From IMG/VR virus record IMGVR_UViG_3300032229_000179, positions 1-22,310 of that record: a stretch of DNA of 22,310 bases; one strand, given 5' to 3'. Within the stretch, counting starts at the first letter, position 1; every line of letters starts with the position of its first letter. Below, in pieces: positions 2,711 through 7,268 of the stretch. Position numbers and translations under genes: made by a program. The DNA is from a virus. Under the pieces are notes generated by a model. That model was not told the DNA's origin, did not search any database, and saw nothing but the letters and a program-made list of their open reading frames with translations.

Positions 2711-2985
2711 GTACAGAAAAGAAAACCCAGTACTGCGGTTCAGCACAAGAGTTAGGCGACAGCTTATTAATCGACCTAAACATCAATCAGTTAAGAGAAA
2801 TCTTATCTAATCCTGATAACGCTCAATTCAAGAAAGAGTTCACTACGAAAGATGGGCAAACTCAGGAAGTAATTAAATTAAAAGCCGTTAAACGCAAAGA
2901 GGCACAAGGTTATTCTACCCACTTCTTATGTTTAAATGATTATGTCAAAGGTGAGAAAGCTCAAGAAAAAGATCTCCCTTTCTAA
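2707..2985 (+). CDS. Small protein with SSB-like C-terminal tail
   Basis: A 92-residue protein next to the exonuclease, joined by ATGA. Its C-terminus is EKAQEKDLPF, closely resembling the acidic D-x-P-F tip through which bacterial single-strand binding proteins recruit partners. The body has alternating hydrophobic and charged residues (FTTKDGQTQEVIKLKAVKRK) that could form a short beta barrel, plus an N-terminal helix LNINQLREIL. The length is well below that of a typical SSB OB-fold protein. An unusual phage ssDNA-binding protein is the best guess; a protein that only mimics the SSB tail to recruit host repair factors is the alternative. The last 50 bases overlap the next gene. Confidence 0.55.
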   Translation: MSTEKKTQYCGSAQELGDSLLIDLNINQLREILSNPDNAQFKKEFTTKDGQTQEVIKLKAVKRKEAQGYSTHFLCLNDYVKGEKAQEKDLPF

Positions 2986-3373
2986 AATCAAGTTTACCGA
3001 CGATTATCGTTGGGACTTAGCTTTTGAAGCAATCAAGGAATTAACAGGAGTTAGCCCGAACGCCATTAGAAGGTCTAGTAGGGTTACTCCACTTCCTGCT
3101 GCTAGGATGATGTTGGCTTACCTAATGTACAAGGATTTAGGAATGACACCAGCTTATATTTCTCATCAAATGAATAAGGATAGAACAAATCTTTATTACG
3201 AGATTTCAGCACTAGAGGAGTATAAGCAGACAGACCCTTACAAAAGCTATTACGAAGCGTTTAGCGAATTATTTTACAAGAAATTAAAAGACTTAGGTTA
3301 TTGTTGTCCTTGCTGTGGAGCATTAGAGCCATTAGTAAAAGGAGACAAGCCATTAAAACCAAATAAACAATGA
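2936..3373 (+). CDS. DnaA domain IV-like DNA-binding protein (diverged)
   Basis: A protein of up to 145 residues. The middle region (about 52-95, AARMMLAYLMYKDLGMTPAY followed by ISHQMNKDRTNLYYEIS) has the shape of DnaA domain IV, the helix-turn-helix that reads DnaA boxes: an Arg-start helix, YLMYKDLGM, then I-x-x-x-x-x-KDRT in place of the usual GRDHST. The C-terminus has a CCPCCGALEP cysteine cluster that may bind zinc. There is no AAA+ ATPase. Start choice is uncertain: ATG at 2936 or 2942, neither with a good ribosome binding site, and both give a 44-50 base overlap with the previous gene. A clearer DnaA domain IV protein is encoded at 4083-4646. Confidence 0.62.
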   Translation: MIMSKVRKLKKKISLSKIKFTDDYRWDLAFEAIKELTGVSPNAIRRSSRVTPLPAARMMLAYLMYKDLGMTPAYISHQMNKDRTNLYYEISALEEYKQTDPYKSYYEAFSELFYKKLKDLGYCCPCCGALEPLVKGDKPLKPNKQ

Positions 3374-4071
3374 GAGTAATAAATTTTAGCGGTGGAAAGA
3401 CATCTGCATTGATGACTATTCTGCTAAAGCCTACGGAAGAAGATATTGTCTTGTTTACTGATACCGGTAGAGAACATCCGTTGACTTACAAGTTTATAGA
3501 TGACTTTGAATCAAATGAAGGTATCAAGGTAACTAAAATTTCTTATGATGGAGGATTCGAAGGCATGCTAGAGAAGAATAAGTTTCTTCCTAACCCAATG
3601 ATCCGTAAATGCACCGTAGAACTTAAAATTAAAACTGCTAAGAGATACTTACGCTCAATAGGAATACAAAGATTCGATAGTTATATTGGATTTAGAGCTG
3701 ATGAAGATAGAAGGGTAAAAACCTACAAGCAAATGCACAAAAAGGTAACCCCACACTTCCCACTTTATGACATGGGTATAACTAAAGACGATGTAAACCA
3801 ATATTGGGAATCTAAGCCTTATAAGTTAGAAATACCTTCAATATTAGGCAACTGCGATTTATGCTTCCTAAAGGGTAAAAATGCGATTATTACTATATTG
3901 CAACATTATCCTGAGTTGGCTGACAAGTGGATTGCAGATGAGAAACGAATCGGTGCTACTTACTTTAAGGACATTAGCTACGAAGAATTGCTAAATTTAG
4001 CACAAAAACAATTATCTTTATTTGAATTAGACAAACAATTACCTGCATACTCTTGCAGTTGCACAAATTAA
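3370..4071 (+). CDS. PAPS reductase-family ATP pyrophosphatase
   Basis: A 233-residue member of the phosphoadenosine-phosphosulfate reductase/adenine nucleotide alpha-hydrolase superfamily. It has the PP-loop FSGGKTSA at residues 6-13, FTDTGREHP near 29-37, IRKCTVELKI at 78-87 and GFRADEDRRV around 107-116. Six cysteines stand out: C81, C162 and C165 (GNCDLCFLKG) and C229/C231 (YSCSCTN), with an arrangement that could hold a metal or iron-sulfur cluster. The family includes true PAPS reductases and enzymes such as DndC that activate a substrate with ATP in DNA sulfur modification. No PAPS synthesis or dnd partner gene is seen. The setting between DNA-binding and Mom-like genes suggests nucleic-acid modification, which is inference. 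Confidence 0.8.
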   Translation: MRVINFSGGKTSALMTILLKPTEEDIVLFTDTGREHPLTYKFIDDFESNEGIKVTKISYDGGFEGMLEKNKFLPNPMIRKCTVELKIKTAKRYLRSIGIQRFDSYIGFRADEDRRVKTYKQMHKKVTPHFPLYDMGITKDDVNQYWESKPYKLEIPSILGNCDLCFLKGKNAIITILQHYPELADKWIADEKRIGATYFKDISYEELLNLAQKQLSLFELDKQLPAYSCSCTN

Positions 4072-4082
4072 AAACCAAAATT

Positions 4083-4646
4083 ATGATACATAACCCAAAA
4101 CCAGTAGATTTAGAACTATTAAAAGACACTTGCTGTCGTATTTTTGAAGTAAATATTGATGATTTATTAAGTCCTTCCAGAAAGCGTCATATCATGGATG
4201 GTAGACGAGCATTTTTCTATATCCTTAGAACCGAGTATGGTTATAGCGAACTAGGAATCTCACGAGCAATTGGAGGCACTAGAGACCACTCTACAATCAT
4301 GCACTCTAACTACTCAACTGCTGACTTATTAGACGCTGATTATACCTTTGCGAGTAAATACAAGCAACTATACGAAAGCTTTACATTACGTCAATATGTT
4401 AAGCCATTACCGCCAAAACCTAAGACGTACAATATGAAATTAAAGCCTATCTACAACTACTATACTGACGATATGTTGGCTAAGTCTAAGCTGAAGATGG
4501 ATTATAGAGTTAAACTACTTTCTGATAATTACAAGAAGGATGTGATTAAATTTATGGACAAATACGGCAATATTACAGCTTGTACGGTTAAGTTTAACAT
4601 ATCTAGACTGCTTGTTCAACGAATCATAAAGGAGATGGCAAAATGA
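4083..4646 (+). CDS. DnaA domain IV-containing protein
   Basis: A 187-residue protein whose N-terminal half is a stand-alone DnaA domain IV: an initial helix LLKDTCCRIFEVNIDDLLSP, SRKRHIMDGRRAFFYILR, then YSELGISRAIGGTRDHSTIM. RDHST is the signature that contacts the DnaA box in host DnaA. The ATPase domain is missing. The C-terminal third (YGNITACTVKFNISRLLVQR) looks like a second helix-turn-helix. It may bind origin DNA with the initiator encoded next, or act as a decoy for host DnaA sites. I prefer the ATG at 4083, which does not overlap the previous gene; an upstream ATG at 4053 would add ten residues. It ends in an ATGA overlap with the initiator gene. Confidence 0.82.
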   Translation: MIHNPKPVDLELLKDTCCRIFEVNIDDLLSPSRKRHIMDGRRAFFYILRTEYGYSELGISRAIGGTRDHSTIMHSNYSTADLLDADYTFASKYKQLYESFTLRQYVKPLPPKPKTYNMKLKPIYNYYTDDMLAKSKLKMDYRVKLLSDNYKKDVIKFMDKYGNITACTVKFNISRLLVQRIIKEMAK

Positions 4647-5278
4647 GCGGATTTTTCTATACGATGCCTGCTGCTGTTTTCTACGATAAAGAGCTTTCTG
4701 CTAATGCCAAATTGATTGCTTGTATCATTGCAAATTTCTGCGATAAATACGGAGTTTGTACGGTTACAAATAAGCATCTAGGTAATGTTTTAGGGAAGTC
4801 AGATCGTAGTCTTTCTAGGCTTATTTCTGAGCTAAATGAAGCAGGTTATATTGACGTAAAAGTAGATATTTTAGACTCAAATAAACGTACGATTACCCTC
4901 ACGACAAAAATGTCTATACCTCACGACAAAAATGACGTGACCTCACGACAAAAATGTCTACATAATAATACTATAGATAATAATATTAAAAATAATATAA
5001 AAGATGTTGAGGAAATTGTTAATTATTTGAACGAAAAGACAGGCTCTAAATACAGAACTGGAAATCAAAATACTTGTAGGTCTATCAACGGAAGATTAAG
5101 CGAAGGATATACCGTAGAAGATTTTAAAACCGTTATAGATTCACAGGTTGCGAGATGGACAGGAACTGAGTACGAACAATACCTAACTCCAAATACTTTA
5201 TTTAGTCCTAGCAAATTCGAAAAATATCTTAACTTTGCTAAACAACCTAAAGAACAAAAACCAAAAATCAAAGCATAA
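4643..5278 (+). CDS. Winged-helix replication initiator
   Basis: A 211-residue protein with an N-terminal winged helix (residues about 14-75: LSANAKLIACIIANFCDKYG, TNKHLGNVLGKSDRSLSRLI, LNEAGYI) and a C-terminal domain like the conserved phage replication C-terminal domain seen in lambda O/DnaD-like initiators (EEIVNYLNEKTGSKYRTGNQ through TPNTLFSPSKFEKYLN, about 122-195). The two are joined by a linker rich in Asn, Ile and Lys. That linker is encoded by three 22-bp-spaced direct repeats and an AT-rich run, so the gene carries the likely origin. It would bind the repeats and load the DnaB helicase encoded at 5913. Overlaps with both neighbours (ATGA, TAATG) indicate coupled translation. Confidence 0.82.
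   Translation: MSGFFYTMPAAVFYDKELSANAKLIACIIANFCDKYGVCTVTNKHLGNVLGKSDRSLSRLISELNEAGYIDVKVDILDSNKRTITLTTKMSIPHDKNDVTSRQKCLHNNTIDNNIKNNIKDVEEIVNYLNEKTGSKYRTGNQNTCRSINGRLSEGYTVEDFKTVIDSQVARWTGTEYEQYLTPNTLFSPSKFEKYLNFAKQPKEQKPKIKA
4897..4956 (+). repeat. Three origin iterons, 16 bp, 22-bp period
   Basis: CCTCACGACAAAAATG occurs without mismatch at 4897-4912, 4919-4934 and 4941-4956. The period is exactly 22 bp, about two helical turns, so all copies face the same side of the helix. The first and third copies continue as TCTATA/TCTACA; the middle one continues as ACGTGA. Copies one and three contain the dyad GACA-AAAA-TGTC. Because 22 is not a multiple of three, the copies are read in three different frames (LTTKM, PHDKN, SRQK), so the repetition is at DNA level. 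They are the expected binding sites for the initiator whose gene contains them. Confidence 0.85.
4957..5006 (+). other. AT-rich candidate DNA unwinding element of the origin
   Basis: Directly after the third iteron the sequence is almost only A and T for about 50 bases (runs such as ATAATAATACTATAGATAAT). This is the layout of a lambda-type origin: initiator repeats flanked by an easily melted segment where the helicase is loaded. It also encodes the Asn/Ile/Lys-rich linker of the initiator. The functional role is inferred from arrangement. Confidence 0.65.
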
Positions 5279-5913
5279 TGAGTATTAAGAATTTATATTC
5301 AGTTAAATCAATAGACAGCTACGAGTGCTATGATTGGCTACTGAACAAGCACTATGCTAAAAGAATACCATCAATAAGTTATTCATTCGGTTTGTTTAAA
5401 GAGAATATTTTAAATGGCGTAATGACCATTGGTAAACCAGCTAGTAATTCACTTTGTGAAGGTATATGCGGATATGAGAATAGTAAATACGTTTATGAGT
5501 TAAACAGATTGGTTATAAACGAAGGATTAGATAAAAATGTATTGAGTTTTTTTGTATCAAATGCAATTAAGCTAATAAAAGAAAATCTGATTATTGTTAG
5601 TTATGCTGATACTGAATGGGGACACAATGGATATATTTATCAAGCAACAAATTGGATTTATACCGGATGCACAAAGGAAAGAACTGATATTGGACTTGAA
5701 GATGGATCGCACTCTAGGCACTATGACAAAAATTTAGATTATGCAAATAATAGGAAGAAAAGAAGTAGCAAACATAGATATGTATTTTTTATTGGTGATA
5801 TGAAAAACCAATTTAAGAGCCAGTTAAGATACAAGATAGAAAGTTATCCAAAGGGCGATAATAAAAGATACGATGCTAGTTACATACCTAAACCACAATT
5901 AAATTTATTCTAA
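5278..5913 (+). CDS. Mom-like DNA modification acyltransferase (copy B)
   Basis: A 211-residue Mom-family protein. It has WLLNKHYAKRIPSISYSFGL at about 20-39, the strand NGVMTIGKPAS, YELNRLVIN around 75-83, and IVSYADTEWGHNGYIYQATN, then W, at about 103-123. These are the conserved positions of the GNAT-fold Mom enzymes that modify adenine in phage DNA after replication. The C-terminus is basic (NRKKRSSKHRYVFF) and may help DNA binding. It sits between the initiator and DnaB helicase genes, linked to each by TAATG, so it should be made with the replication proteins. It is diverged from copy A at 625-1215, so the two may use different substrates or sites. Confidence 0.78.
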   Translation: MSIKNLYSVKSIDSYECYDWLLNKHYAKRIPSISYSFGLFKENILNGVMTIGKPASNSLCEGICGYENSKYVYELNRLVINEGLDKNVLSFFVSNAIKLIKENLIIVSYADTEWGHNGYIYQATNWIYTGCTKERTDIGLEDGSHSRHYDKNLDYANNRKKRSSKHRYVFFIGDMKNQFKSQLRYKIESYPKGDNKRYDASYIPKPQLNLF

Positions 5914-7268
5914 TGACACGCATACAACCACACAATATCGAAATCGAAGAACAGGTGCTAGGGATTATCCTAAATGAACCTAAAGCATTTGTTACTGCGG
6001 TAAATATTATAAACGCTAATTGCTTTTACAAAAATGAACACCAAACTGTATTTAACGCTTTTACTAGCCTGTATTCTCAAGCAAAGCCAATAGACCTAGT
6101 GTCAGTAACTACCTACCTAAGAAACAACAACCACTTAGATAACGTAGGCGGCAACTTCTTTCTGATGGAGCTTATGGAGCGTGCAGGGACTTATTCTTCT
6201 TTCGAGTATTTCTGCCATACATTACTAGAATTAAGCGAACGTAGAGAGGGAATTGAGAAGTCAGCAAAACTAATCGACAGCCTATACGACCTATCTACCG
6301 ATTTAGACGAAAATATGGTAATTGCAAACGAAGTCGTTTTAAGCCTTTCTAACGAAGTTTCTAATGTCGGTGGTGTCCAACTATCAACTGCACTACTTGA
6401 GATGATTAGAGAGCAGGAAAATGAGCTTAGAGGGGAATTCTCTGGTTGCAAGAGCAAGTACGTTGATTTAGATCGAGTAATCGTAGGCTTTAAGAACCAA
6501 CAAGTTGCTGTATTAGCCGGTAGACCCGGAATGGGTAAAACAACCTTCGGGATTAACATTGCTTATAGACTTGCAAAGTACGATAAGACCCCAGTAGGTT
6601 TCTTTAGCTTAGAAATGAGTAGCGTAGAGTTAACCAAGAAGTTTGCGGCTATTGAATCACAAATTTGCAATTCTAGAATGACTATGTTGAATGAGAGACA
6701 AGTTTTAGATTACTTTAGTGCAATACAATCCGTAGGAGACTTGCCAATCTTTATCGACGATAAGCCAGGTGCTTCTATAGACGAGATTAGAGCAAGAGCA
6801 ATTACAATGAAGCGTAAGCATGACGTTAAGCTGATAGTTATCGACTATTTGCAACTAATTACGACCAAGTCTAGAAGCGGTAATAGAGAACAGGAGATTT
6901 CGGAGATTAGTAGAAAGGTAAAGCTATTGGCAAAGGAACTAAACATCCCAATTATCGCCATTTCTCAATTAAGCCGTCAGGTAGAACAATCAGACCCTAA
7001 AGTACCTTTCCTACACCACCTAAGAGAATCAGGAAGTATCGAGCAAGATGCGGATATGGTATTGATGTTATGGAGACCTGAGTACTATGATTATCCAAGT
7101 TTTGAATACGATGGAATAGACACAGATTCTCGTGGAATGGTAGTTACCTATGTGAGAAAGAATAGGAATGGAGAGACCGGTAAAGCCCTAATGAAGTGTA
7201 ATTTGGCATATGCAAGTTTCTACGATAATAATGTTGATAATTTTATGTTGCCAAATACAGACTTTTGA
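5913..7268 (+). CDS. dnaB: Replicative DNA helicase, DnaB family
   Basis: A 451-residue helicase of normal DnaB length. The N-terminal helical domain starts with IEIEEQVLGIILNEPKAF. The RecA-like motor has Walker A GRPGMGKTT at residues 203-211, FFSLEMSS, Walker B LIVIDYLQL near 307-315, the AISQLSRQVE block, ESGSIEQDADMVLMLWRPE, and a C-terminal RKNRNGETG that includes the arginine-finger region. It unwinds the fork at the phage origin, presumably loaded by the initiator at 4643-5278. No separate loader gene is seen. It starts in a TAATG overlap with the second Mom-like gene. Confidence 0.96.
   Translation: MTRIQPHNIEIEEQVLGIILNEPKAFVTAVNIINANCFYKNEHQTVFNAFTSLYSQAKPIDLVSVTTYLRNNNHLDNVGGNFFLMELMERAGTYSSFEYFCHTLLELSERREGIEKSAKLIDSLYDLSTDLDENMVIANEVVLSLSNEVSNVGGVQLSTALLEMIREQENELRGEFSGCKSKYVDLDRVIVGFKNQQVAVLAGRPGMGKTTFGINIAYRLAKYDKTPVGFFSLEMSSVELTKKFAAIESQICNSRMTMLNERQVLDYFSAIQSVGDLPIFIDDKPGASIDEIRARAITMKRKHDVKLIVIDYLQLITTKSRSGNREQEISEISRKVKLLAKELNIPIIAISQLSRQVEQSDPKVPFLHHLRESGSIEQDADMVLMLWRPEYYDYPSFEYDGIDTDSRGMVVTYVRKNRNGETGKALMKCNLAYASFYDNNVDNFMLPNTDF

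Follow-up and report, generated by a model that had tools for sequence, protein, structure and literature searches.

A putative replication origin embedded in the winged-helix initiator gene of an uncultivated phage, with iterons that co-vary with the recognition helix

The window analysed here, a 22,310-base IMG/VR virus contig that is possibly a fragment, carries three direct repeats and an adjoining AT-rich block inside a gene for a replication initiator. As far as sequence can tell, this site is in all likelihood a phage replication origin that lies within the gene for the phage's initiator, of the kind represented by lambda O and SPP1 gp38. An intragenic origin had been proposed at this position in an earlier sequence-only reading of the same DNA, and the repeats, the AT-rich block, the identity of the surrounding gene and the covariation between the repeats and the encoded protein all support that interpretation.

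The repeats are three exact copies of the 16-mer CCTCACGACAAAAATG on the plus strand (4897–4912, 4919–4934 and 4941–4956), with starts at 4897, 4919 and 4941 and thus exactly the 22-bp spacing originally described. Iterons 1 and 3 have 20 bases in common and each contains a GACA-AAAA-TGTC dyad (4903–4914 and 4947–4958, respectively), which is broken in the middle copy (GACAAAAATGAC). A period of 22 is not divisible by three, so each copy is read in a different codon frame, as LTTKM, PHDKN and SRQK. No further copy of CCTCACGACAAAAATG with up to three mismatches was found elsewhere in the whole contig; the mean number of chance copies at this threshold was 0.16, and none of 100 dinucleotide shuffles gave three. 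The iterons are very probably the DNA landing site of the initiator, as predicted from the features described below.

The third iteron is followed by a presumed DNA unwinding element at 4959–5005 (core 4962–5002, no strand assigned). What had been noted as about 50 bp of nearly pure A/T can be delimited either as 41 bp with two G/C (4962–5002) or as 47 bp with four (4959–5005). Nearest-neighbour energies place the contig-wide minimum of duplex stability here: for lengths of 40, 50, 60 and 100 bp, the minimum falls on segments starting at 4949–4962, and the least stable segment begins 3–6 bp past iteron 3. A DnaA-box origin was considered and rejected, as the site has no DnaA boxes: no exact TTATCCACA occurs in the contig, and none at one mismatch inside 4643–5278. 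GC skew, which in this contig is dominated by gene direction, was uninformative as an origin signal and turns at approximately 8.5 kb, where genes converge, and not at the site.

Both elements lie in the ORF at 4643–5278 (plus strand, 211 amino acids), which matches PHROG 428, ‘replication initiation protein’, with an E-value of 1e-44. Two domains score above the Pfam cut-offs, namely a winged-helix HTH_36 domain (residues 17–70, encoded at 4691–4852; E 6e-8, also seen in the fold model) and a Phg_2220_C domain (residues 125–197, encoded at 5015–5233; E 2e-26), and the repeats fall between them, in the linker of a winged-helix initiator gene as first reported. The search of the initiator against Pfam found no RepA_N domain, HTH_36 being found instead. 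Profile comparison links the protein only distantly to O-like initiators (E 7e-6), and its Phg_2220_C half, the presumed helicase-recruiting part, gave a weaker profile match to DnaD-like loaders (PHROG 1701). In an AlphaFold2 model (mean pLDDT 74, with low confidence in the linker encoded by the iterons), the recognition helix comprises residues 54–67 (encoded at 4802–4843) and includes Arg55 and Arg59; this assignment draws on the iteron covariation as well. A sequence search of the PDB with the initiator returned nothing significant, and Foldseek with the model returned weak, generic winged-helix matches, the best being the Rep–DNA complex 5kbj (E 0.009).

The initiator is part of a replication module, with ERF and YqaJ recombination genes upstream and, two genes on, a phage DnaB-type replicative helicase (5913–7268, plus strand; Pfam DnaB_C E 3e-80, PHROG 19) that is presumably loaded at the origin. 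Between initiator and helicase lies a Mom-like DNA modification gene (5278–5913); it looks like a mobile insertion, since the helicase comes straight after the initiator in L004, a relative with 98% identity, as well as in L005–L007 and L009. The ORF at 625–1215 resembles the Mom-like gene only when compared by eye. A PAPS-reductase-like gene (3370–4071), also present in L011 and, at 28% identity, in L015, and undetected in several close relatives, is variable cargo of the module. Two proteins with regions resembling DnaA domain IV (Bac_DnaA_C) are encoded upstream of the initiator at 4053–4646 and 2936–3373, the match of the latter being weak and below the cut-off; both are kept in close relatives and may have evolved from DnaA into DNA-binding proteins of the phage.

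The claim that selection must act on the DNA held up when codons were swapped among identical amino acids: the observed repeat score of 49.2 exceeded all 200 such synonymous shuffles (maximum 31.4), and the repeats lie in three frames. Applied to 20 other stretches of genes in the contig, the same procedure gave none above its own null. The test is conservative, because lambda O, which contains a proven origin, was only borderline, with 1 of 200 shuffles reaching the observed score. Within the clade to which the phage belongs (six members), the third base was invariant in 14 of 20 iteron codons and in 13 of 14 codons of the AT block, indicating conservation of the latter at the DNA level; the counts for the two flanking domains were 19/84 and 23/77. 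When 92 initiators were surveyed, 65 scored above all synonymous shuffles, a figure that is overstated because in-frame amino-acid repeats can pass. We therefore relied on the out-of-frame subset, in which 32 of the 92 exceeded all 100 shuffles (our own count from the survey table).

Comparison with related phages, a check named beforehand, gave the same picture, with the DNA repeats kept at 60–98% identity and changed in concert in a sister clade. The outcome that would have counted against an origin, with linker residues retained but the repeats lost from the DNA, was not observed, and the comparison favoured the origin instead. The initiators L004–L011 (60–98% identical) all encode three CACGACAAA iterons at 22 bp, with small single-copy changes in some, and iteron number and spacing are conserved over 57–98% initiator identity. 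The sister clade (L013–L016, L116–L118 and L123; about 54–58% identity) has three CCTATACGCAAAAATG iterons in the same places and with the same spacing, in which positions 4–8 are changed in all three copies together and the AT block is kept. The dyad was rejected as the conserved feature for this clade, whose TATACGCAAAAATG iterons are without it. Iterons of the type CTATCCCCAAAAATG are found in L124 and its relatives. As the spacers mostly differ and the cores agree, selection appears to act on the cores, as opposed to wholesale homogenisation of 22-bp units. Repeat number also varies, as had been anticipated, with four iterons in L143 versus three in its relative L142.

Two departures from these patterns were observed. 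In L014 and L016 the eighth base of the CCTATACGCAAAAATG-type iteron is T or C (T, C, T across the copies, with fixed neighbours), and helix residue 55 is Gly in place of Ser; the sequences suggest that the variation at base 8 reflects the loss of one base contact. In L127 (606–1240), a fourth 22-bp iteron, either genuine or introduced by assembly, shifts the frame to give a 104-residue, helix-only initiator with the C-terminal domain in another frame, illustrating that single added 22-bp units break the gene.

A similar layout was found in the initiators of Staphylococcus phage 77, Butyrivibrio phage Ceridwen, several Lactobacillus phages, phages of Fusobacterium, Acinetobacter and Enterococcus, and Cellulophaga phage phi39:1: A-tract-centred, often palindromic iterons, mostly 21–24 bp apart, and then usually an AT-rich block. 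With the layout common across the initiator family, the design is less exceptional than the sequence-only reading implied.

The sequence of the repeats co-varies with the recognition helix, as the earlier reading had also foreseen. GACAAA..GTC dyads accompany helices with the motif R55-[ST]-[ILV]-x-R59 in 17 of 17 unique helix domains, and none of 46 domains without the motif; counted by clusters at 65% identity, the figures are 6/6 versus 0/16, although the rule was framed after the alignment table of helices and iterons had been viewed, which makes its P value optimistic. Among 22 phage initiators fetched later, such dyads were present in both of those with the motif and in 0 of 20 without it (Fisher 0.004), in a small test where phi31.1 and ul36.1 share one sequence and 3 of the 20 end shortly past the helix. 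The two later motif carriers, Cellulophaga phi39:1 and Flavonifractor Cormatin, have three GACAAA..GTC dyads each, and repeated dyads of this type were absent from three further plasmid genes lacking the motif. An apparent specificity switch separates L249 and L250, a more distant pair whose members are 79% identical to each other: their recognition helices differ at residues 53, 55 and 59 (R55K, R59C), and all six half-sites switch symmetrically, from GAC to TAC type. In staphylococcal phages, Glu55 occurs with TTGAC in 16 of 16 distinct sequences and Val55 with two or more TTAAC in 15 of 15. Residue 55 alone was rejected as a code, as Arg55 without Arg59 pairs with other iterons (L017, L131 and L135).

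At the level of sequence, this covariation demonstrates joint evolution of helix and iteron, as a correlation among related sequences that does not imply contacts. The chances seem about even that HTH_36 phage initiators follow a partly readable code in which helix residues 55–59 would determine the bases on either side of the iteron's central A-tract, R55-[ST]-[ILV]-x-R59 being paired with GAC..GTC, K55/C59 with TAC..GTA and, in staphylococcal phages, Glu55 with TTGAC and Val55 with TTAAC. If so, the location of reader and target in one gene could make origin specificity predictable from sequence and would let it move as a single cassette.

The analogy drawn earlier with lambda O proved apt, since the iterons annotated in the lambda record lie mid-gene at 20–24 bp spacing, are centred on A-tracts and have dyads. 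The O proteins of lambda and Stx phages bind iterons that lie in the central part of O, next to a tract rich in A/T (PMC7466680). Their origins share with the site described here the mid-gene position of A-tract-centred iterons and the neighbouring AT-rich tract. They differ in having four to six iterons, compared to three here, and another iteron sequence; furthermore, lambda uses the loader P and the host DnaB, whereas the present phage has a DnaB gene of its own. In SPP1, gene 38 contains oriL, whose direct repeats lie beside an unwinding element and are bound by gp38 with nanomolar affinity (PMC6316719), and for 80alpha ORF20 an origin has been proposed within its gene (PMC5499656). Like the present site, SPP1 oriL and the origin proposed in 80alpha combine direct repeats and an AT-rich unwinding element in the initiator gene with a phage DnaB-type helicase. 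SPP1 differs in its separate loader gp39 and second origin oriR, and no second iteron array or loader of this type was seen in the (partial) contig or the proteins scanned.

The HTH_36 protein gp41 of Cellulophaga phage phi39:1 has a helix domain 42% identical to that of our initiator, the helicase gene next to it and, likewise in the linker, three CACGACAAAATTGTC iterons at 21–22 bp. The iteron centre is AAAATT in phi39:1 versus AAAAAT here, and the phi39:1 record is without an origin annotation. Among plasmids, pSK41 Rep binds boxes inside rep (PMC5703833), and the hybrid pPR9, an autonomously replicating plasmid compatible with pSK41, has an HTH_36 N-terminal domain that was swapped along with the segment carrying the origin (PMC5703833). 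These RepA_N replicons share with the phage a winged-helix initiator and boxes in its own gene (for pPR9, by published description), but differ in that the phage initiator has no RepA_N domain match.

The helix covariation is evidence of co-evolution with the initiator and not of origin activity as such, and to that extent favours a rival in which the repeats, though bound by the initiator, serve as an operator or in copy control (handcuffing) instead of as a replication start. We nevertheless consider this improbable: the site is 250 bp into the gene, and the next gene start is approximately 270 bp downstream or beyond; no simple promoter pattern of the Bacteroidota type, for a host phylum that is itself plausible only, was matched near it; it borders on the stretch of lowest duplex stability in the contig; and in lambda and SPP1 a site laid out in this way has been proven to be an origin. 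Still less probable is that the repeats are bound, as DnaA boxes are by DnaA, by the DnaA-domain-IV-like protein encoded at 4053–4646. Its gene is directly upstream of the initiator gene both here and in relatives of all close clades, but the site has no DnaA box, L129 retains GACAAAAATGTC iterons when the gene was not detected in the L129 DNA examined, and the iteron sequence tracks the recognition helix of the initiator. Although slippage can produce tandem units of 22 bp (two nearly identical ones occur in L123 and an extra one in L127), it is hardly credible that the repeats are a slippage by-product or a protein-level repeat, functionless as DNA, as the three frames exclude the latter and the cores are identical while spacers differ, persisting or changing together over deep divergence.

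In the intragenic-origin reading that we favour, each step from initiator binding and dimerisation through melting and helicase loading to origin activity is inferred, along the following lines. Dimers of the N-terminal winged helix of the initiator would bind the three A-tract-centred iterons, which their 22-bp spacing (about two turns) would place on one face of the DNA, and the resulting nucleoprotein complex would strain and open the adjacent AT block (4959–5005). The C-terminal Phg_2220_C domain would then deliver the phage's own DnaB helicase to the opened strand. No separate helicase loader gene was recognised among ten proteins scanned, and the Phg_2220_C domain itself may be the loader.

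The attribution to a Bacteroidota phage, made at the outset, is plausible in that a Cellulophaga phage was the best isolate by score in the helix search (42% identity, with Flavonifractor phage Cormatin at 43% over a shorter stretch), but the phylum is not proven. In keeping with such a host, most genes and start codons of the contig are without an obvious Shine-Dalgarno sequence. Searches for the host through similar DNA yielded no phage record matching the contig at megablast level, and no match for its tape-measure-like protein.

In a limited literature search we found no described origin for probable Bacteroidota phages. The site provides a precise candidate origin for an uncultivated phage and would extend the intragenic-origin design of lambda and SPP1 to a further group, probably phages of Bacteroidota. 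The main wider value lies in the covariation of helix and iteron: because initiator and target co-vary within one gene, natural specificity-switch pairs such as L249/L250 are on offer, from which it may be learned which residues choose which bases, and which would open a practical route to predicting origins in metagenomic phages from sequence alone.
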